From positions 1 through 53,322 of the forward strand of contig JALZVU010000211.1 of NCBI GenBank assembly GCA_023301795.1: DNA of 53,322 nucleotides, read 5' to 3'. The notes beneath the pieces were generated by a model that saw only the letters and a list, made by a program, of their open reading frames with translations, searched no databases and was not told the DNA's origin. Below are positions 1 through 32,709 of the stretch, in pieces. The stretch is from Granulosicoccus sp. GTDB taxonomy: Bacteria; Pseudomonadota; Gammaproteobacteria; Granulosicoccales; Granulosicoccaceae. Positions within the stretch are counted from its first letter, which is position 1. Each line of letters opens with the position of its first letter. A program made the position numbers and the translations under genes.

Positions 1-115
1 TATGGGGGCCGCCCAGGCAAGGAGCGGAATACAGACTGTATTTCCGACGGGGGCGCCCAGCCTGAGTAGGATTCGCTACAGGAAAAGGGGGCGCGGAAGT
101 ATTTGGTGTATTCAT
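1..115 (-). CDS. Possible 5' end of an unidentified gene, cut by the window edge
   Basis: Starting from an ATG at 113-115 on the minus strand, the frame stays open for 38 codons to the window edge. The visible part begins MNTPNTSAPPFPVANPTQ and then turns basic (GRPRRKYSLYS). It lies downstream of, and on the same strand as, the ADP-ribosylglycohydrolase gene, so it could be the next gene in that run. I do not recognise the family, and such a short open frame in a C-rich stretch may be chance. Confidence 0.3.
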   Translation of the reverse strand, partial: MNTPNTSAPPFPVANPTQAGRPRRKYSLYSAPCLGGPH

Positions 116-158
116 GGATAATCCGGGCTGGCCCGGCCCGCCCAATGGTGCGAAAATA

Positions 159-202
159 GCGTTTTCAAAATCTGCTTCTACTGGGCAGGCCATTGAAAAC
201 GC
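159..202 (-). terminator. Hairpin after the ADP-ribosylglycohydrolase gene
   Basis: A perfect 10-bp inverted repeat (GCGTTTTCAA at 159-168, TTGAAAACGC at 193-202) with a 24-nt loop lies just past the stop at 221. On the minus strand it is followed by a moderately T-rich CTATTTTC. It may be a weak terminator or an attenuating stem. Confidence 0.4.
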
Positions 203-220
203 TCGGTCGCAAATCCTGAG

Positions 221-1357
221 TTAATCAGGGTAGAACATGTCCAGATAACGTTCCAACTCATTATTGAGTTCGTCGTGAATACGTAAACCCTCATACCAAT
301 CAGCTGAGTAAGCGCCGCTTGCCAGTCCCACCAGAGTACCTAGCACCGATCCGCGATGCGCGTTTTCTCCTCCCAGATTGGTATTGGTTAACATTGCACG
401 TTTATCATCTGCTGAATATTTTGCTGCCAGATAACAGACGCTGGGCCATGAGTCGGTAATGTAGCAAGCTAACGAGTACGTCCTGCCGACAACATAGTTG
501 TCAGGCTTGTCAGCAGCTAACAGTTTGTCCAATCGTGTACCACTAATGACAGAGGCGGCTTCGATAAAAGCGGTATCCGCAGCTTCGTTTTCTTCGCGAT
601 TTAAAAGCGTGTCGATAAGCGTGACATAAGCGTCCACAACTTCCAGCAATTTCTTGTCAGGATGGGTCAGCCAGACATGCTCACGACACGTCTCGCACGT
701 GTCATGTAGAGAATCACCACGGCCCAGGAGCGCCAGTGCCAGCGGTGCGACGGTTACCAAAGCACCCATTGACGGCGTATCGTGAGTAACTGCGCCACAT
801 TGCAGCGGCGCTTTGCCGGTAGCAAGGTTTGCGAAAAACCCACGATGACAACTTTCGGCGTAGGTATCTGGATGGGCAGGCGGGTCGGCAGTCATGAAGC
901 TGATGTAGGCATCAATCCACTGGTCAGTTTGGTACTGAGGATGGCTTAGCAGGTGATTGACCAGTAGCCGTGCCCACCACGCATTCAGCGTATTGTCACC
1001 GGCTTGCATTCCATGGTGATAATGCCCGTTGGGTCGCCCCCAGAATTGTTGGCGACCTTTAAGGATAACGTCACCGACGATTTCCTGGCCACCTTGTGCT
1101 TGAACACGTGAACGCCCGCCACCTGTCGTTGAGTGCAATGACATGATAGAACTGGGATGCTTTTCGGGTGCTGCCTCAAGACCTGTGATACCCCATTTTC
1201 CAAATGCTCTGAGAATGTCACCGGGATTGTAGAACCAGTGAACTGGCATGGAAAGCGAATCCCCGATGAACAGGTTGGCCAACGCCGCTTTCACGCGTTT
1301 GCGTTTGAGTGCTTGCGGGGTATTGGCCGCACTCGCAATATCGGTGATTTGTGTCAT
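221..1357 (-). CDS. ADP-ribosylglycohydrolase (DraG/ARH) family protein, divergent metal motifs
   Basis: A 378-aa protein. DraG/ARH-family enzymes remove ADP-ribose from proteins or small molecules using a binuclear magnesium site. Family-like features are GDSLSMPVHW near residue 32 and the C-terminal GGENAHRGSVLGTLVGLASG, which occupies the place of the usual GGDTDT-x-GA-xx-G motif. The N-terminal DDT-like motif reads GDNT. Two metal-ligand motifs therefore differ from textbook DraG, so the reaction may differ. It is the last complete member of a minus-strand run, 16 bp after the AEC carrier gene and probably co-transcribed with it and with the FAD oxidase. Fold assignment is fairly safe; the substrate is unknown. 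Confidence 0.8.
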   Translation of the reverse strand: MTQITDIASAANTPQALKRKRVKAALANLFIGDSLSMPVHWFYNPGDILRAFGKWGITGLEAAPEKHPSSIMSLHSTTGGGRSRVQAQGGQEIVGDVILKGRQQFWGRPNGHYHHGMQAGDNTLNAWWARLLVNHLLSHPQYQTDQWIDAYISFMTADPPAHPDTYAESCHRGFFANLATGKAPLQCGAVTHDTPSMGALVTVAPLALALLGRGDSLHDTCETCREHVWLTHPDKKLLEVVDAYVTLIDTLLNREENEAADTAFIEAASVISGTRLDKLLAADKPDNYVVGRTYSLACYITDSWPSVCYLAAKYSADDKRAMLTNTNLGGENAHRGSVLGTLVGLASGAYSADWYEGLRIHDELNNELERYLDMFYPD

Positions 1358-1373
1358 GTCAGCATGCCTGTTG

Positions 1374-2318
1374 TTATAGATAACCTGTAGAAGACAGATA
1401 CAGGTACGTAGTAACGCTGATTATGGACAGACACGTGGACACAACAACCGCACTGGAGGCACGCTCTTCCCAGATGCCGTATTGCTGAGCTATAACAAAT
1501 ACATTGGTGGCACTGGGTAGCGCTGCCAGCAGCACTGCTGAGTGTAGCCATACAGGATCAAGATCCGGGATTTGACTCAGTAGGAAATACATCAGGGCAG
1601 GATGAGCGATTAGCTTGATGGGCACCAGATACCCTAACTCCAGAGGGATGCGTTGCAGAGGTCTGAGAGCTGCGGTGACGCCCATGACAAACAACGCGCA
1701 GGGTGCTGCAGCATTGGATAGTGTTGAAAGCAGGCTGCTTGCTGGCGCAGGCGGCACAAATTCGAAAAACGCTGCAAAGATACCGGCGATGGTCGCCAAA
1801 ATAAAAGGGTGTGTAAAAATCTTTACACCGATGCCGCGGATTAACTTCAACAAGCTTCTTTTGCGTCGGCTGCCCATCGCCATCAGCGATGGAGCCAGCG
1901 TGAAGTGCATGGCATTGTCCATGCAGAAAACCAATGCTACCGGGACACCTGCTTGTGGACCGAAAGCGGCAATGGCCAGAGGTGGGCCCATGTAGCCAAT
2001 ATTGCCATAGGCACCGGCAAAGCCCTGAATGGTGGACTCGCGGGTATTGGCTCGTCCAAGCACTTTTGCAATGAGAAACGTCAATACGAAAACGATGAAC
2101 GTGCCTAGGGTCGTGGTGAGCAGAAACGTGCCGTTGGCAAATTCGCTGACGGGTGTCTGCGCTAACAGGTTAAAAAATAGCGCGGGCAGTGCTATGTAGA
2201 CAATGAAAAAATTCATCCATGCCAGACCCTCTACCGGAATCCCTTTTAAGCGACCCGCCAGATATCCAAGCAATATCAGCCCGAATAATGGCATGACCAG
2301 TGTGCCGATCTGAAACAT
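1374..2318 (-). CDS. AEC family transporter (auxin efflux carrier/malate permease type)
   Basis: A 314-aa, very hydrophobic inner-membrane protein with about ten predicted helices. It opens with FQIGTLVMPLFGLILLGYLAGR, typical of bacterial AEC carriers, which export or import small organic acids or amino-acid-like anions. The mid-protein stretch GAYGNIGYMGPPLAIAAFG is the conserved half-helix region of the family. The gene lies 19 bp downstream of a 2-hydroxyacid oxidase gene and 16 bp upstream of the ADP-ribosylglycohydrolase gene, all on minus. A hydroxyacid or dicarboxylate substrate is a reasonable inference from the oxidase neighbour but is not shown by the sequence. Confidence 0.88.
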   Translation of the reverse strand: MFQIGTLVMPLFGLILLGYLAGRLKGIPVEGLAWMNFFIVYIALPALFFNLLAQTPVSEFANGTFLLTTTLGTFIVFVLTFLIAKVLGRANTRESTIQGFAGAYGNIGYMGPPLAIAAFGPQAGVPVALVFCMDNAMHFTLAPSLMAMGSRRKRSLLKLIRGIGVKIFTHPFILATIAGIFAAFFEFVPPAPASSLLSTLSNAAAPCALFVMGVTAALRPLQRIPLELGYLVPIKLIAHPALMYFLLSQIPDLDPVWLHSAVLLAALPSATNVFVIAQQYGIWEERASSAVVVSTCLSIISVTTYLYLSSTGYL

Positions 2319-2337
2319 GCGGCTATGCGTGCCCTTG

Positions 2338-3822
2338 TTAGTTAGAGCTGGACGGTGGATTGATGTCGATGATTTTCCCTCTATTCAGAAGGTTTTTCGG
2401 ATCAAGTGTCTGTTTCAGCGTTCTCATCAGGTTGATTTCCACAGGACTGCGTGACAGGGCAAGGTACTGTTTCTTTTGAAGCCCGATACCGTGTTCTGCT
2501 GATACTGATCCACCCAGTGCTTGCAGTGGTGAATAGACATAAGTATTGCTTTGCTCTCGCCAGTGTTTATGTCGCGATACGCTCTCCGAGGTGTTCTGGT
2601 CAGTGTTGTTGGCATCGGCACTCATTTTGTGCTCAGTGAGTTCAGGTGGCGCCACCATAATATGTAGATTGCCATCAGCGAGATGTCCGTATACAAACAG
2701 CTTGCAGTTGTGCCAGTACAGTTCCACATCGTGCTGAAGCTGCTTAACGTATTGCTCCATACTGGCAATCGGCAAACTGATGTCGTACACAAACAGCGGA
2801 TGGTGCTCCAGTGCAATGTCTATGTGTTCGCGGATGTACCAGATGTTGGCAGCCTCAGTCTTTGATTGTGCAATGACCGCATCCACGATTACATCCTTTT
2901 CCAGTAGATGCTCCAGGGCTGAGGTAAACGTTGTATCGCTTTGGTTTTGCGTGTCAGCAGCACTCTTGGCTTCGACAATTGCATACAAAGGATATTCTGG
3001 AGACAGCGGGGCACTTACGGTGTCGCTTCGGGTAGGATCTGTGTTCAGTTTGTAAAAAGGTTGCCAGATAACTTCAAAGGCATCCAGAGTGCCATTGAGT
3101 GATTTATCCAGATGGCCAAGTATTGCAACAACATCATCGAACTGCCGACATGCCACTAACGCTGTCTGCACGACAGGTGTTGCAGCACGCAATCGCAATA
3201 CCACGCGCGTTATAATGCCCAGCGTGCCTTCGCTGCCAATAAACAATTGCTTGAGATCGTAGCCTGCGTTGTTTTTCATCATGCTGTTCATGGACGAGAC
3301 AATCGTGCCATCAGCTAACACGGCTTCAAGGCCTAGCACCTGTTCTCTTGCCATGCCATAACGTAAAACCGAAAGACCACCCGCATTGGTCGATACGTTA
3401 CCGCCGATGGTGCAAGATCCACGCGCTCCCAAGTCGAGTCCCAGTTGTAGGCCGATATCTGTTGCTGCTTGTTGTACATCTTGTAAAATAGCACCGGCCC
3501 CCACAGTCATTGTTCGGCCAACAGGATCAACCGTTTCAATCTGTTTCTGGCGTTCCAGACTCAGGATAAGATCTTGATCGGTGGTTAGGTTTCCATCGAC
3601 TAACCCGGTTACCCCTCCGTGCGTCACCACAAGCTGATTGTTTGCATGGCACAGTTTCAGTACTTCGGCGGTTTCTGACGTGTTGGCGGGGCGCACTAGC
3701 ACGTGTGCAACCAGCGGCCGTGCATCCCAGAAATGGGTTGCACGTTCACTGACTCGGTGACTATCCAGAACATGCTCTATGCCTACGATCTTTCGTAGAG
3801 CTTCCAGGAAACTATCGTTCAT
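2338..3822 (-). CDS. FAD-binding 2-hydroxyacid oxidase/dehydrogenase (GlcD/D2HGDH-like)
   Basis: About 494 aa from the ATG at 3820-3822. The frame continues 34 codons upstream to 3924, but that extension is low-complexity and outside family length (E. coli GlcD is 499 aa). The N-terminal half carries the PCMH-type FAD domain: GGVTGLVDGN, GARGSCTIGGNVSTNAGG and NNAGYDLKQLFIGSEGTLGIIT. The C-terminal half has the cap domain and the SAEHGIG motif near the end, followed by a DPKNLLNRGKI tail. Such flavoproteins oxidise D-lactate, glycolate or D-2-hydroxyglutarate. It is the first gene of a three-gene minus-strand run with a transporter, which suggests uptake and oxidation of a hydroxyacid. The exact substrate cannot be told from sequence. 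Confidence 0.88.
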   Translation of the reverse strand: MNDSFLEALRKIVGIEHVLDSHRVSERATHFWDARPLVAHVLVRPANTSETAEVLKLCHANNQLVVTHGGVTGLVDGNLTTDQDLILSLERQKQIETVDPVGRTMTVGAGAILQDVQQAATDIGLQLGLDLGARGSCTIGGNVSTNAGGLSVLRYGMAREQVLGLEAVLADGTIVSSMNSMMKNNAGYDLKQLFIGSEGTLGIITRVVLRLRAATPVVQTALVACRQFDDVVAILGHLDKSLNGTLDAFEVIWQPFYKLNTDPTRSDTVSAPLSPEYPLYAIVEAKSAADTQNQSDTTFTSALEHLLEKDVIVDAVIAQSKTEAANIWYIREHIDIALEHHPLFVYDISLPIASMEQYVKQLQHDVELYWHNCKLFVYGHLADGNLHIMVAPPELTEHKMSADANNTDQNTSESVSRHKHWREQSNTYVYSPLQALGGSVSAEHGIGLQKKQYLALSRSPVEINLMRTLKQTLDPKNLLNRGKIIDINPPSSSN

Positions 3823-4001
3823 CGGTGAATTCCATGCGTTAACTTTCTTGTGACTGGTACGGTTCTGGCTGCCCGCTATCAAGGGTGGGGACTCAAAATA
3901 GCCGCCTTGTTGAATATACAACACTATGCGCTAACCGCTGGCCTGCTTGTTGCTGTGATGGTGCAGTAAGCCATTAGCAACTGACATCAGTGGAAAATGA
4001 C

Positions 4002-4910
4002 ATGATGGATGTATCATCAATCAGTAAGGTGACTCTCGACTCAACCGTTGAGCAGCCGCAGCACCGTGCTGGAAGATTACTCATCGTAGGACTTGTTGTG
4101 TCCTCAGGTCTTGCCGTGCTACTGCCAGGGCTAACGTGGGCGAACGGCGCAGCCGCTAATTTGCTGTCGGACATGGACTGTGTCATCGAACCAAGCCGCA
4201 CTGTGGAGCTTGGGTCAGCGGTGCCTGGATTGCTGGCTGAAACCTTCTATGACCGTAGTGATTTTGTTCCCGCTGGTACGCTTATGGCGCGCCTTGAAAG
4301 CGATGTAGAAAGAGTGACGCTAGCAATTGCTGAAGAGTCAGCAAACAGCTCTACCGCTATTGCTCTTCGCAAAGTAACAGCCAGTTTTGGCGATCGTACT
4401 CAGGTACGCAATGCGGAGTTGTTAAAAAGCTCTAGTATTTCGCGACAGGTAATGGATCAGGTAAACACTGAAGCGACGATCGCGCAACTACAGGTCAAGC
4501 AGGAACAAGAGTCAAATCGCTTGGCGTCGCTTGAAGTTGATCGAGCCAGGGCGTTGCTTGAGCGACGAGAAATTAAAACGCCTATTAGTGGATCGGTGAC
4601 TGAGCGCTACAAAACCTCAGGAGAATATGTTGACAGCGAACCGGTGTATCAGGTGGCGCAGCTGGATCCGTTGCACGTGGAGGTCATCGTGCCTGTTGAG
4701 TATTTAGGCAGCCTTAAAGCAGGTTCTTATGCTGGGGTAACTTTGCACATGCCGGGATTCGAAGGCAGAGTACTTGAGGCTGTTGTGCGGCGTATAGACG
4801 CCGTTGCTGATGCAGCGAGTGCAACGTATGGTGTTCGGCTGGTACTCGACAATCCGGACTTGAGCATACCCAGCGGCGTGCGCTGCTCGGTTGATTTTTT
4901 TACTTCTTGA
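4002..4910 (+). CDS. Periplasmic adaptor (HlyD/RND membrane-fusion) protein, orphan
   Basis: About 302 aa. A GTG at 3990 is also in frame, but the ATG at 4002 has a GGA seven bases upstream. A hydrophobic N-terminal segment (about residues 25-45) ending ...TWANG is a signal peptide or anchor. It is followed by a biotinyl-lipoyl-like half (EPSRTVELGSAVPG, RSDFVPAGTLMARL), a short helical hairpin (about 95-180), the second lipoyl half (IKTPISGSVTERYKTSGEYV) and a beta-barrel domain (LHVEVIVPVEYLGSL). This order is that of MFP adaptors, which link an inner-membrane pump to an outer-membrane channel. No pump or TolC-like gene is adjacent, so the partner is unknown. Confidence 0.82.
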   Translation: MMDVSSISKVTLDSTVEQPQHRAGRLLIVGLVVSSGLAVLLPGLTWANGAAANLLSDMDCVIEPSRTVELGSAVPGLLAETFYDRSDFVPAGTLMARLESDVERVTLAIAEESANSSTAIALRKVTASFGDRTQVRNAELLKSSSISRQVMDQVNTEATIAQLQVKQEQESNRLASLEVDRARALLERREIKTPISGSVTERYKTSGEYVDSEPVYQVAQLDPLHVEVIVPVEYLGSLKAGSYAGVTLHMPGFEGRVLEAVVRRIDAVADAASATYGVRLVLDNPDLSIPSGVRCSVDFFTS

Positions 4911-4948
4911 ACAGTTCTCACTCCCCGTTACTTTGAGGGCAGAACGTA

Positions 4949-6001
4949 TTACCCGGTATGTGCTGTGAGATCCGATAGCTGATTGTGATGGACGCAGCGA
5001 TTCCTGCCGCTATCCTTGGCGGCGTAAAGCGCCTTGTCTGCTTGAGCTACAAGCGCTCTACCAGAGAAAAACGCCTCTGCTGGCGTTAACATTGTCTTCA
5101 TCGATGCAGTCACGCCGGTCAGGTTGGTTGATACTCCGATGCTTACTGTGATTTGTACAGTACCCGAACTCACATTTATCGAGGCGGCTTCGACCATCGA
5201 TCGTATTTTTTCTGCGGCTGTGAGTGCTTCAGTTTCGTCGGTACCTGGCATAACGACAATGAACTCCTCACCGCCATAGCGACCCACAAGATCGGAATCC
5301 CGATTTATGTTCTTGAGCACGCTGGCAAGATGCCGCAGTACCTTGTCACCACTGTCGTGCCCGAGACTGTCGTTAATATTTTTGAAGTGATCAATGTCAA
5401 GAAGCAGCACTGAGTAGCTGGCTTCCAGGCTGGTGTTCGAGAAGGCGTAGTTCTGAATCCAGTCATCAATGTAGCGTCGGTTGTGCAATTGGGTGAGGCT
5501 ATCGGTAATTGCAAGCTTACGCAGTTGCTTGTTCAGCTGAAGAAGTCTTTTATTCGCTGAGTTAAGTTTGAGGTTGCTTTTTTGCACACGCTCCAGGAGC
5601 TTGCTGTTTTCCCTTGTCAAGCGGACGGTATTGTAGGCGCGCTCAACAGTGCTCACTATCTCTTCGTGGTTAGTGAGTGGTTTGTTGAGGTAGTCATACG
5701 CGTTGCCTCTGAGTGCGCGCTTAACCAGCTCGTTACTCTCATGCCCCGTCATCATGATCACTTGAATGTTGTCATCATGTTCCTTGATATGCTCCAGAAT
5801 TTCAAATCCAGATACTCCATCCATCATGATGTCTGTTACAACGACATCAATATTCTCATGCGCGAGAATGTCTATTGCCTGAAATCCATCTTGCGCGCTT
5901 ATAACACGCCGGTTTTCGCCTTGAAGAATGATGCTCAGCAGCTGGGTGATCGCGGGTTCGTCATCCACAACCAGAACTGTACTTTGTGTTTGGTGTGTCA
6001 T
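4949..6001 (-). CDS. Response regulator diguanylate cyclase (REC-GGDEF)
   Basis: A 350-aa cytoplasmic protein. The N-terminal receiver domain (about residues 8-122) has the acidic pair VVDDE, the phospho-acceptor Asp57 in VVVTDIMMDG, and Lys107 in NKPLT. A short coiled coil (about 125-162) leads to a GGDEF domain (about 165-335) with active-site GGEEF at 243-247 and an intact RxxD inhibitory site (RDSD, 234-237). It should make cyclic di-GMP from two GTP when phosphorylated, with product feedback. No cognate histidine kinase is adjacent. Its neighbours on either side are unrelated genes. Confidence 0.95.
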   Translation of the reverse strand: MTHQTQSTVLVVDDEPAITQLLSIILQGENRRVISAQDGFQAIDILAHENIDVVVTDIMMDGVSGFEILEHIKEHDDNIQVIMMTGHESNELVKRALRGNAYDYLNKPLTNHEEIVSTVERAYNTVRLTRENSKLLERVQKSNLKLNSANKRLLQLNKQLRKLAITDSLTQLHNRRYIDDWIQNYAFSNTSLEASYSVLLLDIDHFKNINDSLGHDSGDKVLRHLASVLKNINRDSDLVGRYGGEEFIVVMPGTDETEALTAAEKIRSMVEAASINVSSGTVQITVSIGVSTNLTGVTASMKTMLTPAEAFFSGRALVAQADKALYAAKDSGRNRCVHHNQLSDLTAHTG

Positions 6002-6284
6002 TGTGGGTGCGGTTTCTTATCGTTCCATTGCGTGAGTGGCGTTACTACAGAAGGTTAACGGCTCAGAGTCCTCGCACTCAAAGAGTGAGCCGCACAAAGT
6101 TGTGCGCACTGAGGCTTGTGTCGCGACTTTTACAGTTTTTTGTGCAAGTAGAAACAAAAATGTGATGTAGTGCCGTATCCGTCAAGTGCGCTATGGCTCG
6201 TGACTCAGAGGCATGGACGCAGATGTCTGGCAGGCTTCTTATGTTATCCCGATATAGATAGACTGAGCGCTAACGGACAACGGC

Positions 6285-7139
6285 TCAAGATTTTGGCGTG
6301 CTAATTCGATGCTCGGGAATAACCCAAGGCACACTATCGCAACCGGTTACAACGCTGACACCATAGACGTTGGCAATATTGTCGTTGGTCAGTACTGCGG
6401 CCGGTTCGCCAACTGCCACTAGCCTGCCTTCGTGCATCAGTGCCAGACGATGGCAATAACGTACAGCCAGTGACAAATCATGCATAACCGCAACTACTGC
6501 GTGCTGATTGCTTGCGTAGTCTCGAAGTAATTGCATGGTTTGTAATTGATGGCCAAGATCCAGAGCTGATACAGGTTCGTCGGCAAATAATAGTGAGGGT
6601 GTCGCGGCCAGTGCACGGGCCAGTAATACCCTGGCACGTTCACCGCCCGATAAGGTGGGCACCTTGCGATAGCGTATGCTCTGGCAATCGGCTTCTGTGA
6701 TGGCATTCTCAACCGCCGCGTAATCTGCATCTGTCACTTTGCTCCAGCGGGGCAGGTGCGGTATTCGACCCAGCATGATTAGCCGTTCAACACTCAGTGG
6801 CCAATGCACGTTGCCCAGTTGCTCCACCCAAGCTATACATCGAGCCCGCTCAGTTGAGGAGTAGCTTGTAAGGTCACGCTTGTCAATGACTACGCTACCG
6901 GATGTTGGACTATCGATACCCGCAATGCATGCCAAGGCCGTAGATTTGCCAGCCCCGTTGGGGCCAATTAATCCCAACATCTCGTTGGCCATGAGATCGA
7001 AGGAAATATTGTCAACAATGGCGCGTCCGCCACGTTCTACGGTGAGGTCCTGAACTTGAATTCGTACCGTGTCTGTGGCCATGTCCTGAACATCAGTTTG
7101 TGTCACATTCAGAGAAGTATGCTTTGTCGATTGTTTCAT
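6285..7139 (-). CDS. btuD: ABC transporter ATP-binding protein of the cobalamin-uptake operon (BtuD-like)
   Basis: A 284-aa ATPase. Walker A is GPNGAGKST (59-67), the signature is LSGGERARVLLARAL, and Walker B is LLFADEPVSALD with an H-loop in VMHDLSL. These fit the FecE/BtuD/HmuV subfamily that powers FecCD permeases. I chose the ATG at 7137-7139 because it overlaps the permease stop as ATGA; the frame is open further upstream but reads as non-protein. A second in-frame ATG lies 19 codons downstream (7082). Last gene of the riboswitch-headed operon btuB-lipoprotein-btuC-btuD. The substrate is inferred as cobalamin or a corrinoid from the riboswitch. Confidence 0.9.
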   Translation of the reverse strand: MKQSTKHTSLNVTQTDVQDMATDTVRIQVQDLTVERGGRAIVDNISFDLMANEMLGLIGPNGAGKSTALACIAGIDSPTSGSVVIDKRDLTSYSSTERARCIAWVEQLGNVHWPLSVERLIMLGRIPHLPRWSKVTDADYAAVENAITEADCQSIRYRKVPTLSGGERARVLLARALAATPSLLFADEPVSALDLGHQLQTMQLLRDYASNQHAVVAVMHDLSLAVRYCHRLALMHEGRLVAVGEPAAVLTNDNIANVYGVSVVTGCDSVPWVIPEHRISTPKS

Positions 7140-8140
7140 CGAGCGTAATCCCGCCGGCTTTTCAGGATCAGCACCAAAAAGAATGGCGCTCCGACCAGCG
7201 CTGTTAGTACGCCTACCTTGAGCGGCACGGGTACGTCGGTGTATAGCGAAACCAGGCGCACGGCTATGTCGGCAGCCAGCAACATGGCAGCGCCCCCTAA
7301 CGCTGCAAGAGGTAGTAGACGTGAGGGCTGGTATTGAGCAAACGGGCGAAGCAGGTGCGGGATTACCAGGCCGATGAAGCCGATCATGCCGGTGGTTGCC
7401 ACGGCGGCTCCCACGCACAACGACACCGCAATGAAAACCCGCCACGATAATTTGCGTGTATTAATGCCCATGCTGCTGGCGGTGCGCTCACCCAGCGTCA
7501 AGGCATCGAGTGAACGTCCAGTGCCTGTGAGTAACAACCAGCCCAGCAGTGTGCAGGGCAGCATCACCCAGACATCTTGCAGGCTTCGGTCTGCAATATC
7601 CCCTAAAGTCCAAAGCACCAGCTCACGTATGGCGAACGGACTTGGGGCAAGGTTTAGCAGCAGCGATAAACAGGCGGCCGCTAGTGCATTGATGGCAACG
7701 CCTGCCAGAATCAGTGTGGAGACGCTGGAGTCGCGCCCCGAGAGCAGATAGACAAGACTGGTGGTAATCAAGGCACCGATCATACCGGCCAGAGGTACAG
7801 ATTGTGGGTGCCAAGTGCCTGCAAAAAAATACAAGGCTGTCACCGCCCCCAAGGCTGCACCACTTGCGCTTCCGACAAGGCCCGGACTGGCGAGTGGGTT
7901 TTGTAGCAATCCTTGCATGGCAGCACCAGACACTCCAAGTGAGATCCCGGCGATGATCGCAATCAAGGTTCTGGGAAGTCTTATCTCTCGGGTGATTACA
8001 GCGGATACTGATTCTGGGTCAGCGAAGGGTAACACCAGTGTGTCATGTAAGGATGACCATTGTTCGCCAAGGCACAAACTCACAAGGCCCAGAAAAACGA
8101 CCGACACACAAAGGATAGCAAGGCAGAGTCGGTCGTTCAT
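7136..8140 (-). CDS. btuC: FecCD-family ABC permease, corrinoid uptake (BtuC-like)
   Basis: A 334-aa inner-membrane permease with about nine or ten helices. Hallmarks are REIRLPRTLIAIIAGISLGVSGAAMQGLLQNPLASPGLVGSASGA-like sequence in the N-terminal third (about residues 49-95) and GMIGFIGLVIPHLLRPF near the C-terminal third, both characteristic of BtuC/HmuU/FecCD permeases for cobalamin, haem or siderophores. Its 3' end overlaps the ATPase start by four bases (ATGA), indicating translational coupling. No periplasmic binding protein (BtuF) gene is present in this operon. Confidence 0.92.
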   Translation of the reverse strand: MNDRLCLAILCVSVVFLGLVSLCLGEQWSSLHDTLVLPFADPESVSAVITREIRLPRTLIAIIAGISLGVSGAAMQGLLQNPLASPGLVGSASGAALGAVTALYFFAGTWHPQSVPLAGMIGALITTSLVYLLSGRDSSVSTLILAGVAINALAAACLSLLLNLAPSPFAIRELVLWTLGDIADRSLQDVWVMLPCTLLGWLLLTGTGRSLDALTLGERTASSMGINTRKLSWRVFIAVSLCVGAAVATTGMIGFIGLVIPHLLRPFAQYQPSRLLPLAALGGAAMLLAADIAVRLVSLYTDVPVPLKVGVLTALVGAPFFLVLILKSRRDYAR

Positions 8141-8182
8141 TGTTCAGTCCTTTAGGTGCCTGTCGAATTGTTGATTTATCTG

Positions 8183-9502
8183 TTATCTATCAACTTCAAG
8201 AAACAGAACGTCATCAGGTATTAAGGTGGTCCTTACACGCTCTTGCGCGGGTACGCCGTCTTCCAGATTAACTCGGATAAATCCTGGGTTGTCGTCCTGA
8301 ATACCTACCCACAGGTGGTTGTCAGGGCCCAAGGCTATGGTTGTCAAAATCTGACCTGCAGTGCCATCGATAGGCTCAGATACTTCGCCAGTCTCAAGGT
8401 TCAGTGATCGCAGATTACTGATGAGATTAAAGTCTTCATCAAAACCATCAAACGTAATGGCATATCCCAGCGTATCGTCGATAACTACAAGGTTAGTGTA
8501 GAAGCCGTTGTTATCGGCCTCGGTGCCATCATCGATCAGTAGAGCTGTCTCGAACGTGTCTGGGTCGATCGATTGAACACCGCCAGAGTAGGCATCCGTG
8601 GTGACCGCCTCATTGCCGAAAGAATTGCCCCTGCCAGCAACATATAAAAGGCCTGTGGCTTCGTTGTAATGTAGAGAGACTGGGTTGGCGACGTCTAGCT
8701 GAATACCTTGCAGTTCGCCCACACCTTGTCCTGTTTCTATTTCCATGTTGGTACAAACATCGATTACCGCTAAATAGCCGGTTTCTACAGGTGCAAAGCC
8801 GTCAAGGTTTTCCAGCAGCACGAACAATTTGTCGCCAACCAGTATGGCATCTGTCATATCACCAAAATCTACAGCGCCTTCATCCCCTGGGCGGTTGTAT
8901 GCTGCCAGACTGATCTCACCCATAATAAGCGCTTCGGTGGTCAGTGGTTCTGGGCTCGGATCAAGGACTAGTAACGAATCGCTGGAACGTCTGGTCAGAT
9001 AAGCAAAATCGTTATTAACGAATACCAGTGACTGCGGGTTGGTTGTACTGGGTTCATCGGTTAGCAGTGATAGCTGGTATTGCGCCGCCGAGGTATCGAT
9101 AGCGTCAAACTTGGTCAGGTTATCAATGTCGAAGCGTCCAATCTGGAAAATGCTTGTTCCATCAGTTGCCAGTCTATGGTCTGAATCAGTCGCTGGATAC
9201 GTTCCGTCCACGACATTACCGTCGGTTAGTGAGATGCGCTCGATTTGTGCAGACTCACGCATCGGGCCACGGGTGAATACGTAGCTGTAGCTAGTAGCAC
9301 CATCGCCGGAAGCAGCAGCATCCGGTGTTTGTGTGTCCGGAGGAATCCCTGTTTCGCAAAAGGCTGGAGTAGGGGCTTGTGCGATGGGCGACAGACCAGT
9401 GTCCTCATCATTATCATTGCTTGAGCTACACGCACCAAGCAGGGTTAGCGTACTGGCAAAAGCCAGCGTGGTGTAAGCACGTCTATTGTTAATATGATTC
9501 AT
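8183..9502 (-). CDS. Beta-propeller-like lipoprotein in the cobalamin operon; BtuG-like candidate
   Basis: A 439-aa lipoprotein: signal peptide with lipobox LLGAC (Cys25), followed by SSS, which favours the outer membrane. After a low-complexity linker (about 26-65) come repeated strands of about 45-60 residues with short motifs such as IERISLTDGNV, YLAVIDVCTNMEI, GGVQSIDPDTFET, LRSLNLETGEV and FIRVNLEDG, spaced like blades of a six- or seven-bladed propeller. It sits between the BtuB-like receptor and the BtuC-like permease under one riboswitch. In Bacteroides, BtuG is a propeller lipoprotein that captures B12 on the cell surface above BtuB; an analogous role here is inference, and no family name can be assigned from reading alone. 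Confidence 0.75.
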   Translation of the reverse strand: MNHINNRRAYTTLAFASTLTLLGACSSSNDNDEDTGLSPIAQAPTPAFCETGIPPDTQTPDAAASGDGATSYSYVFTRGPMRESAQIERISLTDGNVVDGTYPATDSDHRLATDGTSIFQIGRFDIDNLTKFDAIDTSAAQYQLSLLTDEPSTTNPQSLVFVNNDFAYLTRRSSDSLLVLDPSPEPLTTEALIMGEISLAAYNRPGDEGAVDFGDMTDAILVGDKLFVLLENLDGFAPVETGYLAVIDVCTNMEIETGQGVGELQGIQLDVANPVSLHYNEATGLLYVAGRGNSFGNEAVTTDAYSGGVQSIDPDTFETALLIDDGTEADNNGFYTNLVVIDDTLGYAITFDGFDEDFNLISNLRSLNLETGEVSEPIDGTAGQILTTIALGPDNHLWVGIQDDNPGFIRVNLEDGVPAQERVRTTLIPDDVLFLEVDR

Positions 9503-9551
9503 AGTGATTTTTAATAGGTTCTATTTTTAGAGAATAACTGCTGGAAGGAAA

Positions 9552-11591
9552 TTAGAATTCGTGAGTTACAGAGATAAAGAAACTTCTACCTGGCTTTGCG
9601 AAACCATTGAATTCTTCAACGAAATCGTCACCGATATTCTGAACGTTGCCGCTCAGTTGCCAACGTTTGTGCTGCCACGTGAATCCCACTGAATGCAGTG
9701 AGGTATTCTCTGCAGGTCGAATGTTTGCGCTGTCGAAGAACCGGTCTCGTGTGGCAGTCCATTCATACCAATAGGCAATGCTGGAAGGTTGATACTGCAC
9801 TCGTACGAAAGCTGTGCGTTTCGCCTGGCCAGGTAGCGTTTTGTTTCGAAAGGCACCAAAGCTTCCCAGGTTTCGAGGATTCTGGAAAGTGGCGTTGGCA
9901 CTGAACTGCCACACAGCCGACGGTGTCCATGCAGCTTCTAATTCCAGACCTGACACTCGTGCTTTGCCCAGATTTTGTGGTCTGCCAATGCCTCGAGCAT
10001 CGAATGTTGTCGCGATGAGTTCATCTCGTTGATTGTAAAAAACAGTAGCATCAAGCTTGATAGTTTCCAACGCGTACTGAAGGCCGATATCTGTATTGAT
10101 TCCTTCTTCAGGCACCAGATCAGAGTTGCCTTCGATAAGTCCTACCGAGCCGAAAAGCTCACCAAACGAGGGTTCACGAAAATAATTGCCCACATTTGTT
10201 GTCACCGTCAGTTGGTCGGTAGCGTAGAGGGCAGCGCCCAGTTGTACACCAAAGTCATTCTCATCAGTTGTCGGTAAGTTGGCCGAGTCTTCCGGAGAGG
10301 TTGATCTGCGTGTTTGGCGACTCTGTTGCCATCGCACCGCTGGGGTTAGCATCCATCGATCTTTATCGTCCAGGATGGCCAGGTGTGCGGTGGCAAGGAA
10401 TCGTTGTCGCTGTGCTTTGAAGTCGTCAACGCGGTTGAACACATCTTGTTGATCGATAGTTTCATCGCGAAGATCCAGCGAAAATCCGGCAGTGCCAGCA
10501 CTGATAAATCGCTCCCAGTAGCTCTTCGCACCCAATGTGCGAATATCTGAATCAATAAGCTGACGGCCTAGTCCAATCTGGCTAAACCTGTCATCGAAAA
10601 GATTGTCAGTCTGATGCCAATATAGTGAGTGCCGAGTATTCCAGTTTCGCCATTCATCAATAGTGTGGGACAGTTGTAGCTGTGATCTAGTGGTGTCGAA
10701 CCGCGCGTTGTTGCCGAGCGTGTTATTTCTGTCGGGTACGGCCAGATCGCGTTCGGTAACCTGGAAAAGGATATCGGTTTTTGTCAGTTCTGAAGCCTTG
10801 TAGCCGCCTTTAAGCAGCAACGCTGAGCGTATTACATCGTTATTACGTCTATTTTCCGTCCGGTCGTCGCTGGTATTCAGACTGGTGCCGTTGTCGCTGA
10901 GAAAAGGAAAGTCATTGTCACTTTGCTGATGGCTCAGTGATGCAGTCCAGTCCAGGTTGTCGCGTCTGCCAAAGTGTGCGGCCGACACGGAAGCCTGGCC
11001 AAAGCTTCCCAAACCCAGCCTTAGCCGTGTGCTGCTAGTGTCACGGGTGTTTTCTCTGAGGGTGTTGAGATTAACCGCACCGCCTATGCCTGCATGCCCC
11101 AATTGCAGTGGGGTGCTGCCGCGATACAGATCAACGGATGACAGGTTGAGGATTTCGAGTGTGGATAAATCCACCACAGGCTCCCCGCCACTGTTGATAA
11201 GAATGCCATCGAGATAGACGGCCGTTTGCGCCGCGGACGATGCTCTTACGGTTATGCTTGAAAAAGTACCAAAGCCACCAGATTGGCGTTGCTGGACACC
11301 CGTGGTATTGCTCAGAATGTTCCCAAGCTGAGAACCGGGTTGCTCCAGGCGCAAGTAGGGGATACGCGTGTGACTACCGGTATGCTCGTCGGCGACCACG
11401 TCGCCCGTTTGTGTGACGCCTTCATCGTCCTTACCAGCAGTAATTTGCAGTTGCTCCAGCGTGGTGGTGGTGGGCTGGCTTGGTCTGGAATTTTCAGTTG
11501 ATGTGTCTTGGGCGACACTCTGGGTGGCTAACAAGATTAAAGTAGGTGCAACGACTAACACGAGCCCAGGGTTACGCAGCCAATTGCTCAT
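9552..11591 (-). CDS. btuB: TonB-dependent outer-membrane cobalamin receptor (BtuB-like)
   Basis: About 679 aa from the ATG at 11589-11591. The frame is open to 11717, but the extra 42 codons precede a normal signal peptide (MSNWLRNPGLVLVVAPTLIL...SVAQ). A TonB-box-like LEQLQITAG follows, then the plug (about 75-175) with LGNILSNTTGVQQRQSGGFG, ITVRASSAAQTAVYLDGI and the VDLYRGSTP...GIGGAVNLNT motif. The rest is a 22-strand barrel ending in ISVTHEF with terminal Phe. The upstream cobalamin riboswitch makes a corrinoid substrate very likely. The start has no strong Shine-Dalgarno, so translation may depend on upstream events (see the 36-codon ORF). Confidence 0.92.
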   Translation of the reverse strand: MSNWLRNPGLVLVVAPTLILLATQSVAQDTSTENSRPSQPTTTTLEQLQITAGKDDEGVTQTGDVVADEHTGSHTRIPYLRLEQPGSQLGNILSNTTGVQQRQSGGFGTFSSITVRASSAAQTAVYLDGILINSGGEPVVDLSTLEILNLSSVDLYRGSTPLQLGHAGIGGAVNLNTLRENTRDTSSTRLRLGLGSFGQASVSAAHFGRRDNLDWTASLSHQQSDNDFPFLSDNGTSLNTSDDRTENRRNNDVIRSALLLKGGYKASELTKTDILFQVTERDLAVPDRNNTLGNNARFDTTRSQLQLSHTIDEWRNWNTRHSLYWHQTDNLFDDRFSQIGLGRQLIDSDIRTLGAKSYWERFISAGTAGFSLDLRDETIDQQDVFNRVDDFKAQRQRFLATAHLAILDDKDRWMLTPAVRWQQSRQTRRSTSPEDSANLPTTDENDFGVQLGAALYATDQLTVTTNVGNYFREPSFGELFGSVGLIEGNSDLVPEEGINTDIGLQYALETIKLDATVFYNQRDELIATTFDARGIGRPQNLGKARVSGLELEAAWTPSAVWQFSANATFQNPRNLGSFGAFRNKTLPGQAKRTAFVRVQYQPSSIAYWYEWTATRDRFFDSANIRPAENTSLHSVGFTWQHKRWQLSGNVQNIGDDFVEEFNGFAKPGRSFFISVTHEF

Positions 11592-11685
11592 AGGCAGGGG
11601 CAGGTGATGTCTGCAGACGCCCGAAAGAGAAAAACGAACACGGCTATAGTGCCGGTATACACCGAAGAGCATTGACGCAGAAAAT

Positions 11686-11796
11686 CTAAAACAGGAACGC
11701 ACCCCGCGCCACCTCAAGGTTAAGCGTGACGAGGAATCGATTAGGGTGCAGGAGGGCGTGTGCGTCGTATTGGAAATCGAGCGACGCCAGGCTCAT
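11686..11796 (-). CDS. Small ORF (36 aa) between the cobalamin riboswitch and btuB
   Basis: An ATG at 11794-11796 opens a 36-codon frame (begins MSLASLDFQYDAHALL, ends ARGAFLF) closed by TAG at 11686-11688. It is preceded by a full GGAGGT at the ideal seven-base spacing, the best ribosome site in this part of the window, whereas btuB 95 bases downstream has almost none. The reading frame is different from btuB's. It could be a translated leader controlled by the riboswitch, or a small protein of the uptake system. I recognise no family; it may also be a fortuitous frame within the expression platform. Confidence 0.45.
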   Translation of the reverse strand: MSLASLDFQYDAHALLHPNRFLVTLNLEVARGAFLF

Positions 11797-11803
11797 CACA
11801 CAC

Positions 11804-11809
11804 ACCTCC
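11804..11809 (-). promoter_or_regulatory. Strong Shine-Dalgarno for the 36-codon leader ORF
   Basis: GGAGGT on the minus strand, seven bases before the ATG at 11796. The stretch CTGGAGG containing it (11805-11811) is perfectly complementary to CCTCCAG inside the riboswitch region (11939-11945), so ligand-dependent masking of this site is possible. Confidence 0.5.
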
Positions 11810-11834
11810 AGACCCCTCGTCCAGCTGTGGATTT

Positions 11835-12050
11835 TTTCGCAGGGCAGGTCTCCTGGCTTATAGCGTGACAATCTGAACGTTCTCGGTCGAGAATGAACGT
11901 GTTGTCCTGAAACGCCCTTCCCGAGCCAAGGTGTTGTCCTGGAGGCTCAGTGGTTACGCGTTACAGATTCACTACTTACAGTTGCGGGGGCAGCCAAGGT
12001 GTTGAACCTTGTTCCCTTTTCATCTTTTCAGAACCTTGCAAGCTCCAGAG
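11835..12050 (-). promoter_or_regulatory. Cobalamin riboswitch upstream of btuB
   Basis: Read on the minus strand, it contains the conserved core in order: an AAAAGGGAAC segment, GCTGCCCCCGCAACTGTAAG (about 11973-11992), variable stems, and the B12 box AGCCAGGAGACCTGCC (about 11843-11858). These are the signature blocks of the AdoCbl riboswitch class. It lies about 250 bases before the BtuB-like receptor start and should repress the operon when cobalamin is plentiful. No clear intrinsic terminator follows, so control is probably at translation. Exact 5' and 3' limits are approximate. Confidence 0.95.
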
Positions 12051-12260
12051 GATACACCCTTTGAGGCTATGTAACCTCCACAAGCTGCAATTTGTTCCGG
12101 CTCAGAGGGATAGGCACGATTGTCGAAAGGCAATCAAGTGGTTACTCCATTTATGAAAAGCACTGTGCGCGGCACTTTATCTGCAGCGTCCATCAGCAGA
12201 ACATTTCGTCGGCGCAGCCATATAGTGGCAAAGCCTCTCTCAACTGGGCAGTACAGTTTC

Positions 12261-13265
12261 ATGATAGACATCAAAGACTCCACGATATTGGTCACTGGCG
12301 GCACAGGATCGTTCGGCCATGCGTTTGTCCGACATGCTCTTGATTGCCATCAACCACGAAAAATCATTGTGTACTCGCGCGACGAGATGAAACAGTGGGA
12401 GATGGCCAAAACGTTCGGGCAGGACCCACGCATTCGGTTTTTTATCGGTGACGTGCGTGACAAGGAAAGGCTGTATCGCGCTTTGAGTGGCGTGGATTAT
12501 GTGGTGCATGCGGCGGCTATGAAAATAGTGCCCTCGGCTGAGTACAACCCGTTTGAATGTATCAAAACCAACATTGATGGCGCAATGAATGTAATCGACG
12601 CTGCTATTGATCGGAACGTGAAAAAGGTGGTGGCACTGTCTACCGACAAAGCCAGCAGCCCTTCTAATTTGTATGGCGCAACTAAACTGGCTTCCGATAA
12701 GTTGTTTGTAGCAGGCAATGCCTACAGTGGCGCAACCAGCACCTGCTTCTCTGTAGTGCGCTATGGCAACGTGATGGGTTCTCGAGGTTCTGTTATTCCG
12801 TTTTTCAGTGGACTACGTGACAAGGGTGTTGTGCCTATTACCGACAAACGAATGACTCGCTTCATGATTACGCTTGAGCAGGGCATTGAGGCTGTATGGA
12901 AAGCATTTGACGATATGGTAGGTGGTGAAATATACGTTCGCAAGATACCGTCAATGACCATTACAGACGTTGCTGAAGCCGTTGTACCAGGTGCACGCCA
13001 CGAGTACATCGGAATTCGCCCTGGAGAAAAACTGCATGAGCAGATGATTAGCTCAGAGGACTCCTACACGACCTATGAATACGATGATTACTATAAGATT
13101 TTGCCCGCCATTAACCACTGGGGGGATGATCCATTACGTATCAAGGATGGCGTCAAGGTCCGTGAGGGCTTCGAATACACCAGTGATCGCAACAGGCAAT
13201 GGATGAGTGCCGAAGATCTGCGTGCCTGGATGGGTGGCGAAACAGCACTTCAAAAGGTCGCCTGA
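12261..13265 (+). CDS. pseB: UDP-N-acetylglucosamine 4,6-dehydratase (inverting), PseB
   Basis: A 334-aa protein from the ATG at 12261; the frame is open from 12120, but the family starts at MIDIKDSTILVTGGTGSFG. Short-chain dehydrogenase with the NAD(P)-binding GGTGSFG motif (about 13-19), VDYVVHAAAMKIVPSAEYNP, STDKASSPSNLYGATKLASDK with the YxxxK pair, and a sequence closely matching FlaA1/PseB. It catalyses 4,6-dehydration with C5 inversion, the first step to CMP-pseudaminic acid. pseC follows after one base, so both are one operon. An alternative capsule-type role (FnlA/WbjB-like) is less likely because pseC, pseF and pseI are nearby. Confidence 0.94.
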   Translation: MIDIKDSTILVTGGTGSFGHAFVRHALDCHQPRKIIVYSRDEMKQWEMAKTFGQDPRIRFFIGDVRDKERLYRALSGVDYVVHAAAMKIVPSAEYNPFECIKTNIDGAMNVIDAAIDRNVKKVVALSTDKASSPSNLYGATKLASDKLFVAGNAYSGATSTCFSVVRYGNVMGSRGSVIPFFSGLRDKGVVPITDKRMTRFMITLEQGIEAVWKAFDDMVGGEIYVRKIPSMTITDVAEAVVPGARHEYIGIRPGEKLHEQMISSEDSYTTYEYDDYYKILPAINHWGDDPLRIKDGVKVREGFEYTSDRNRQWMSAEDLRAWMGGETALQKVA

Positions 13266-13266
13266 T

Positions 13267-14466
13267 ATGAACTCGGGTAGACTCCCTTATGGACGACAGG
13301 ATATCAATCAGGATGACGTTGATGCTGTGCGTCGAGTACTTGAGTCTGACCTGATTACTCAAGGTCCGGTTGTTGTCCAGTTTGAAAACGCACTGGCACA
13401 GTATTGTGGTTCTGATTTTGCGATAGCGGTTAACAGCGCTACCTCTGCACTGCACATCGCTTGCATGGCCTTGGGTGTAGGTCAAGGTGATACTGTGTGG
13501 ACCGTTCCCAATACCTTTGTTGCCAGTGCAAACTGTGCGCGCTATTGTCTGGCTGATGTGGACTTTGTCGATATTGATCCTAAAACCTACACAATGTGTC
13601 CGGATGCTCTTGCTAGTAAGTTAGAGCAAGCCAAAACCACCGGAACCGCTTTACCATCAGTGGTTATCGTTGTGCATTTTGCGGGGCAGGCTTGCGATAT
13701 GCGTGTAATCGCTCAACTGGCTGAGCGCTTTAACTTCAAGTTGATTGAAGATGCTTCACATGCTGTGGGTGCTCGTTACGAGAACAAACCGGTGGGCAAC
13801 TGTCAATACAGCGATATCACCGTATTCAGTTTTCATCCCGTGAAGATCGTGACATCGGGTGAGGGCGGTATGGCAACGACCAACAACAAGGCCTTAGCGG
13901 AAAAAATGCGACTTCATCGTAGTCATGGCGTATTTCGCCCAGAACCCGGTAGTGGCAGGGTAGATGACGAGCCGTGGATCTATGAGCAGTCAAGTCTGGG
14001 CTACAACTATCGAATGACTGATATTCATGCAGCGCTAGGACTTAGTCAGTTACAACGCTTGGACGAATTTGTCGAACGACGTCATCAGCTGGCTGATCGT
14101 TATGTGAGCAAGCTGGATCACCTGCCTTTTGTGCTGCCCTATCAATCAGCAAATTCCTACTCGGCCTTGCACTTGTACCCTGTGCTGGTACCTGCAAGTG
14201 AGCAACAGGCCTCTGTTCGTCGAGATTTGTTTGATTATATGCAGAGCCAGGATATCGGTGTGAACGTTCATTACATACCTGTGCACACGCAACCCTACTA
14301 CCAGCAACTCGGATTCAGGCAAGGTGATTTTCCTGCGTCCGAACACTACTATCAGCGTACTATCAGCTTGCCCCTGTTTAGCAGGATGACTGATGCTGAA
14401 CAGGATAGGGTCGTAAACTGTCTAGAAGTGTTTGCACATTCGCTAGGTGTGCGCTTCGCCGCTTGA
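13267..14466 (+). CDS. pseC: UDP-4-amino-4,6-dideoxy-N-acetyl-beta-L-altrosamine transaminase, PseC
   Basis: A 399-aa PLP-dependent DegT/DnrJ/EryC1 aminotransferase. The start is the ATG at 13267, one base after the pseB stop, giving MNSGRLPYGRQDINQDD as in the family. It shows the cofactor-binding region NSATSALHIACMALG, EDASHAVGARYENKPVG, and the Schiff-base lysine in FSFHPVKIVTSGEGG. PseC transfers an amino group to the 4-keto sugar made by PseB, the second step toward pseudaminic acid. It acts in the cytoplasm with the products of pseH, pseI and pseF further along. Confidence 0.94.
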   Translation: MNSGRLPYGRQDINQDDVDAVRRVLESDLITQGPVVVQFENALAQYCGSDFAIAVNSATSALHIACMALGVGQGDTVWTVPNTFVASANCARYCLADVDFVDIDPKTYTMCPDALASKLEQAKTTGTALPSVVIVVHFAGQACDMRVIAQLAERFNFKLIEDASHAVGARYENKPVGNCQYSDITVFSFHPVKIVTSGEGGMATTNNKALAEKMRLHRSHGVFRPEPGSGRVDDEPWIYEQSSLGYNYRMTDIHAALGLSQLQRLDEFVERRHQLADRYVSKLDHLPFVLPYQSANSYSALHLYPVLVPASEQQASVRRDLFDYMQSQDIGVNVHYIPVHTQPYYQQLGFRQGDFPASEHYYQRTISLPLFSRMTDAEQDRVVNCLEVFAHSLGVRFAA

Positions 14467-32335: not shown

Positions 32336-32709
32336 TGGTGGAGCTGGGGGGAGTCGAACCCCCGTCCGAAAGCACTCTGCCATTGGTACTACATGCTTAG
32401 TTCCGTCATTGGCTTTAGCCGCTACAGTGCAGGACGGGCACCATAAAGAGCAGCGAGCCCATTATTGTTTTAGCGATCCAGTGTAAGGGCGACCTTTCAC
32501 GCGATCCTGTGTCTATTGCCCCCGCCCAAACCCACAGGCAGATCCGGAACGGGGCAGTACGTACAACTAAACCCTAAGGTTTAATTATGCGGCCATTGCG
32601 TAGTTGTCATCGTTAGCAACTATAAGTTTTCAGCTGGATTTACGAGGTGGTCTGAATCCTCGGCATGCACCTCAGGGTTTGCAACTCCCGTCGAAACCAT
32701 GTCAGCCCC
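32336..32709 (-). ncRNA. ssrA: Transfer-messenger RNA (tmRNA)
   Basis: A 374-nt one-piece tmRNA. The 5' end GGGGCTGAC pairs with the 3' CAGCTCC, followed by A and an encoded CCA. The T-arm GGGTTCGACTCCC and the conserved 5' GGTTTCGACGGG are present. The resume codon GCT starts the tag ANDDNYAMAA, then TAA (32585-32617). It rescues stalled ribosomes together with SmpB and tags the product for proteolysis. The gene is divergent from purL, and its 3' end has been used as an insertion site (see the 81-bp repeat). Confidence 0.97.

Follow-up and report, generated by a model that had tools for sequence, protein, structure and literature searches.

What does a lipoprotein gene contribute when it stands between the receptor and permease genes of a cobalamin (vitamin B12) importer operon? 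The question is raised by a stretch of 53,322 nt from Granulosicoccus sp. contig JALZVU010000211.1 (hereafter the window, to which coordinates refer unless another locus is named), in which a cobalamin riboswitch precedes genes for a BtuB-type receptor, a 439-amino-acid lipoprotein, a permease and an ATPase. Our analysis makes it quite likely that the product of 8183-9502 is an outer-membrane, corrinoid-binding lid that forms a two-part receptor with BtuB. We propose this on the basis of its predicted fold, the pairing of its gene with btuB, the riboswitch control, and sequence distances that track those of BtuB. The features concerned are the following.

11826..12053, minus strand: cobalamin riboswitch aptamer at the operon head (RF00174, 98.4 bits, gathering score 31.5, full model 1-189)
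9552..11591, minus strand: BtuB-type TonB-dependent receptor (Pfam Plug 1e-12, TonB_dep_Rec 5.5e-32)
8183..9502, minus strand: 439-amino-acid lipoprotein with a predicted propeller domain, proposed corrinoid-binding lid of BtuB (lipobox, structural model, PDB matches)
9428..9430, minus strand: codon of the lipid-anchor Cys25 (read from the sequence; the next residue is Ser)
7136..8140, minus strand: FecCD-type permease, BtuC (PF01032, 9.6e-83)
6285..7139, minus strand: ATP-binding cassette (ABC) ATPase, BtuD (ABC_tran, 1e-28)

All five elements of the operon that an earlier note on this DNA had described were found on the minus strand, and the gene order, for which that note had advised a search in relatives, recurs there. 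The operon of riboswitch, receptor, lipoprotein, permease and ATPase is therefore real and not a chance arrangement. The start of btuD overlaps the stop of btuC as ATGA. The receptor reading frame is open from 11717 (9552-11717, minus strand), and its probable start is the ATG at 11591, which probably begins a signal peptide. The best NCBIfam models were BtuC PRK03784 for the permease (2.4e-67) and the corrinoid ABC ATPase PRK09536 for the ATPase (1.7e-72), each scoring under its cut-off.

To begin with the fold, residues 60-439 of the lipoprotein were modelled with AlphaFold2, using 79 relatives as the alignment, and the model reached a mean predicted local distance difference test score (pLDDT) of 93.7 and a predicted template modelling score of 0.92. 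It contains 27 strands of at least three residues, which we read from the strand list as seven blades, the first being closed by the C-terminal strand. When 350,542 PDB chains were searched with Foldseek, the 13 best matches were BtuG chains, followed by XusB. VIA-align likewise gave 11 BtuG entries Z scores of 30.3-31.5 (2.9-3.1 Å over 308-313 residues), while the protein ranked after them reached 27.9. A search of 177,635 PDB sequences with a profile built from 40 relatives retrieved BtuG structures at E values of 0.003-0.008, behind a histidine kinase propeller, and an 80-row profile placed the kinase first (5.6e-9, over many weak repeats) and BtuG at 0.0017-0.095. The link to BtuG is weak in sequence alone and clear in the fold ranking. 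The propeller that the earlier note had suspected from repeated blade-like strands is thus a confident prediction, with BtuG as the closest structures.

We then turned to the relatives of this protein. Counting the window's own genome, 42 of the 95 genomes close to the window carry a member of the family, as do 16 of 274 sampled evenly across the class; the second figure indicates a patchy distribution. A first scan queried with just the window protein retrieved no relative. When 84,980 species were scanned with a pattern, 113 loci emerged, 80 of which were kept. Judging from record titles, the genera with relatives include Colwellia, Pseudoalteromonas, Paraglaciecola, Marinobacter, Alcanivorax, Solimonas and Panacagrimonas, and several Desulfobacterota have them as well. 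Among plasmid records searched with four relatives, just two, both from Bacteroidota, matched.

After removal of duplicates, 101 distinct loci were available, the window included. In 98 of them btuB lies directly upstream of the propeller gene on the same strand (95 identified by script, and L098, L150 and L160, which have overlapping open frames, judged from coordinates); of the other three, one is cut by its contig and two (L106 and L129) carry a convergent btuB. A riboswitch was detected upstream in 51 of the 60 distinct loci of the species-scan set. The nine misses comprise three loci with a cut btuB (L105, L123, L154), L141 with about 356 bases before btuB, and five others. A second set gave 35 of 42 genomes, and its seven misses had just 200-2680 upstream bases. 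A separate riboswitch directly precedes the propeller gene in L106 and L129 (102.5 and 105.8 bits, respectively), in addition to the one of btuB (6724-6927 and 10969-11192 in L106; 901-1088 and 4917-5124 in L129), so that the link to B12 is independent of sharing the btuB operon. The family is therefore present at riboswitch-linked loci in related genomes, as the earlier note would have expected.

The evolutionary tempo of the proteins was also compared. Among 31 loci with all four proteins, the partial distance correlation was 0.70 between propeller and BtuB and 0.71 between BtuC and BtuF, against -0.12 for propeller and BtuC and 0.29 for propeller and BtuF. With three proteins from 44 loci, the values were 0.73 for propeller and BtuB (bootstrap 0.68-0.78) and -0.02 for propeller and BtuC. 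The correlation with BtuB is support for contact and not proof of it, since pairwise distances share history.

These data bear directly on the fate of btuF, in whose place the earlier note had put the lipoprotein. The window operon does lack btuF, as stated there: no PF01497 binding protein was found in the window, and the four PF01497 matches of the genome all lie on other contigs. Moreover, the propeller gene is followed directly by btuC, with no btuF between, both in the window and in 14 of the 40 loci fetched from relatives, which would suit a propeller that substitutes for BtuF as donor to BtuCD. In another 14 of the 40, however, btuF itself comes directly after the propeller gene (in two more it is nearby), the propeller protein has no PF01497 match, and its distances follow BtuB and show no BtuC correlation once BtuB is allowed for. 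The genome search that the note had recommended recovered an ortholog of the locus-linked btuF on contig C20, without transporter genes. Orthologs of this gene occur in 18 of 48 other searched genomes at 46-62% identity. Since the best solved-structure matches of the C20 protein are heme-binding proteins (5.4e-10), it is called BtuF on the strength of the gene order seen in relatives. With btuF beside the propeller gene in relatives and an ortholog on C20, the propeller did not replace btuF; we rejected the substitute role, which is largely refuted and very improbable. Taken together, what the note had proposed survives as to the propeller, the BtuB-type partner, the BtuG-like design and the riboswitch linkage, and fails as to the replacement of btuF. 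On contig G029:C82 (52647-55600), a riboswitch was seen about 2 kb before an orthologous btuF, on a contig other than that of the btuB operon.

If the propeller works with BtuB, on which side of the outer membrane does it sit? The lipoprotein has the lipobox LLGAC, whose Cys25 is invariant in 40 of 40 rows of the family alignment. A relaxed lipobox pattern is present in 80 of 80 distinct loci outside the Desulfobacterota-type group and in 2 of the 21 loci within it (both groups set by hand from record titles), and the residue after the Cys is mostly Ser or Gly. Twelve of the 21 Desulfobacterota-type loci instead show a CFI motif in the C-terminal part, modelled by NCBIfam as a putative sorting motif, and 11 of these have no lipobox (L100, L110, L118, L126, L128, L132, L135, L143, L150, L157 and L158). 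When nine proteins, seven of them Desulfobacterota-type, were scanned with the NCBIfam CFI-box model, a score of 17.0 passed the cut-off of 15.9, and scores of 15.6 and 12.8 fell below it. Two different anchors on one domain fit a role at the outer surface, without proving it.

A lipoprotein that stayed in the outer membrane facing inward, taking corrinoid from BtuB toward BtuF, would also account for the pairing with BtuB. In Pseudomonadota the majority of outer-membrane lipoproteins are oriented toward the periplasm (PMC12578637), and no match to the flipping machine Slam (PF04575) was found in the own genome, although control genomes gave none either, which makes this search uninformative. 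Yet BtuG and XusB, the relatives of known structure that pair with TonB receptors, are described as surface-exposed in PMC10404256 and in the titles of PDB entries, the Desulfobacterota-type homologs bear that other, putative surface-sorting tail, and BtuF exists as well. We therefore hold the periplasmic location to be unlikely and keep to a lid on the outer face of BtuB. One homolog (L145, 6735-9092) has two PKD stretches ahead of its propeller; such domains are also reported for B12-binding lipoproteins of Bacteroides (PMC8941943).

The identity of the receptor was assessed in the same manner. Searched against PDB sequences, the receptor family profile matched BtuB1 of B. thetaiotaomicron best (4.5e-49), and both BtuB1 and BtuB3 preceded XusA. 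For the model of the window receptor (pLDDT 90.9), the best VIA entry was 8blw_A (BtuB1) at Z 40.1, with some E. coli BtuB entries level to within 1 unit, and seven BtuB entries lead at 39.0-40.1. Both of these searches put BtuB1 first, while Foldseek ranks XusA ahead of it. The window receptor scores below the cut-off of the NCBIfam BtuB model TIGR01779 (101.2 versus 599.7 bits), and in bits the receptor family profile favours three XusA-like receptors (196-205) over five BtuB proteins (147-174).

Is the family, then, simply BtuG in another phylum? BtuG of B. thetaiotaomicron and its BtuBG complex (PDB 8BMY, 8OKV, 8BLW; DUF5074) share with the window system a propeller fold, a lipoprotein nature and a gene that adjoins btuB in a cobalamin-riboswitch locus. 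In the Bacteroidota BtuG loci of Prevotella, L165 and L166, whose BtuG matches 12 PDB sequences with BtuG entries among them, the order riboswitch-btuB-btuG-btuF-btuC (btuF and btuC labelled by eye) is the one seen in many window relatives. The two differ in phylum, in sequence (12-20% identity in structural alignment), and in that many Desulfobacterota-type forms of the family have another tail in place of the lipobox. Even with E values up to 1 allowed, the window protein has no match in Pfam, DUF5074 included. That domain was found in 5 of 40 relatives at E <= 0.1 (best 4e-6) and in 8 of 80 at E <= 0.01 (best 8.3e-6; one seen in detail scored 17.4 bits versus a cut-off of 27.2), and it is not a clean marker, matching in E. 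coli and Methanosarcina control genomes too. With the family profile, four BtuG proteins scored 8-15 bits, a fifth DUF5074 protein gave no row, and the DUF4374 lid of Aureibacter scored 14.7 bits. Outside the family, the closest sequence relatives found, at 76-78 bits, were the lids of two Bacteroidota loci that follow other TonB receptors.

L163 (Phocaeicola), 91-8852: receptor and propeller lid, beside what we take to be a peptide synthetase gene
L162 (Prevotella), 4806-9089: receptor and propeller lid, behind a presumed TetR-like regulator gene

Like XusAB, the Bacteroides xenosiderophore receptor with its lid, both loci have a receptor followed by a propeller lipoprotein, as in our family, and the L162 receptor has XusA as its best PDB-sequence match. 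XusB stands below BtuG in the fold ranking for the window lipoprotein. In a profile-profile comparison BtuG reached 97.6% and the other lids 99.4% (one-to-one, without an unrelated propeller as control). Unrooted trees, in which long branches meet, put BtuG, the XusB-like lids and the family on separate branches, and receptor trees with the same limits likewise keep the groups apart. True membership of BtuG was rejected on these sequence grounds (no DUF5074 match, low profile scores, separate branch). The family probably works like BtuG and is probably a separate lid family, sister or cousin of BtuG, perhaps recruited independently. The earlier suggestion of a BtuG-like design outside Bacteroidota is accordingly backed by the predicted fold, by the order of the genes and by their riboswitch. 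The BtuB-BtuF-BtuCD system of E. coli shares with the window a BtuB-type receptor, a FecCD permease and an ATPase, and the window genome has a btuF ortholog; in E. coli K-12, murI follows btuB with no propeller gene beside it, whereas in the family a lid gene accompanies btuB.

From these elements a route for the corrinoid can be sketched. When cobalamin is scarce, the riboswitch would, by its class, permit expression of the operon. Cys25 would anchor the lipoprotein in the outer membrane, and an acidic linker would place the propeller, exposed at the surface, over the outer face of BtuB. There the propeller would bind a corrinoid and hand it to BtuB, which would import it with TonB energy, and the periplasmic orphan BtuF from contig C20 would, judging from orthology and gene order, deliver it to BtuCD. 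Computation backs the operon, the riboswitch, the predicted fold, the genetic pairing and matching tempo with BtuB, and the separate BtuF ortholog.

Apart from the uninformative Slam search, several observations weigh against a surface-exposed corrinoid lid on BtuB. The loops on the presumed ligand side of the propeller are not enriched in conserved residues: with blades and loops set by hand from the strand list, mean conservation was 0.46 at 135 "top" loop positions and 0.50 at 56 "bottom" positions (one-sided p 0.96). Asp follows the Cys in 5 of 82 lipobox proteins, and by the E. coli rule this residue would not favour the outer membrane. Five loci (L130, L137, L144, L157, L161) have upstream DNA and no riboswitch at the gathering score. 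For the receptor model, VIA places PqqU (39.0) level with most BtuB entries, and Foldseek lists XusA first, just ahead of BtuB1, and PqqU third. The closest Bacteroidota homologs, L162 and L163, have no cobalamin riboswitch in either locus, and L163 lies beside the presumed peptide synthetase gene; fold and motif alone thus do not fix the ligand. The window protein and its two nearest relatives, from L042 and L043, share changes at seven of the 46 positions that 37 further relatives conserve, and at two of the seven those relatives show no variation at all. These changes may reflect a shift of ligand or partner, or drift. The end branch of the window protein is 0.79 versus a median of 0.26 and was not flagged as long.

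Several of these points would suit a receptor-lid pair that imports another ligand, such as a metal chelate for B12 synthesis, with the riboswitch only coordinating expression. The nearest Bacteroidota pairs stand outside riboswitch loci, the L162 receptor resembles XusA, and both the bit scores of the receptor profile and the Foldseek order lean to XusA-type receptors. The genome's second and only other cobalamin riboswitch (L037, G000:C79, 1131-11278) fits as well, being followed by genes that we take to serve cobalt transport or uptake and cobalamin synthesis; the organism may both make and import B12. On the other side, the receptor profile meets BtuB1 and BtuB3 before XusA, the best VIA entries are BtuB, many loci add btuF, btuC and btuD, and BtuG is a better structural match to the propeller than XusB. 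We regard another ligand as quite unlikely, and a corrinoid lid on BtuB remains our preferred explanation. More tentatively, and with the odds rather against it, the lidded B12 receptor could have arisen twice: the pair would come from an XusAB-like branch, re-targeted to corrinoids as a unit, and would not descend from BtuBG; it would have converged on the BtuBG gene order, and the window subclade would be changing its ligand site again.

A 2018 study states, in its accessible part, that BtuG homologs occur only in Bacteroidetes (PMC6143338), and in the available text of a 2023 study lipoprotein-capped TonB receptors are said to seem exclusive to that phylum (PMC10404256); the same portions of both tie such receptors to competition in the gut. 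Among the titles listed by a literature search that covered few subscription papers, none reported this lid family in Proteobacteria or otherwise outside Bacteroidota. Lid-assisted capture of B12 is probably more widely spread than thought. If the proposal is true, the occurrence of lids in both Gammaproteobacteria and bacteria of the Desulfobacterota type would turn B12 capture with the help of a lipoprotein into a general strategy and not a gut adaptation, the family would bear on B12 sharing outside the gut, and proteins left without a name by the Pfam and NCBIfam models applied would gain a proposed function. Isolates of Colwellia, Pseudoalteromonas, Marinobacter and Alcanivorax offer test organisms for the role of the lid.

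Elsewhere in the window, divergent genes at 12120-14466 begin near the riboswitch and resemble, as we presume, those for the first two steps of pseudaminic acid synthesis. A transfer-messenger RNA gene lies at 32336-32709 on the minus strand (202.3 bits).

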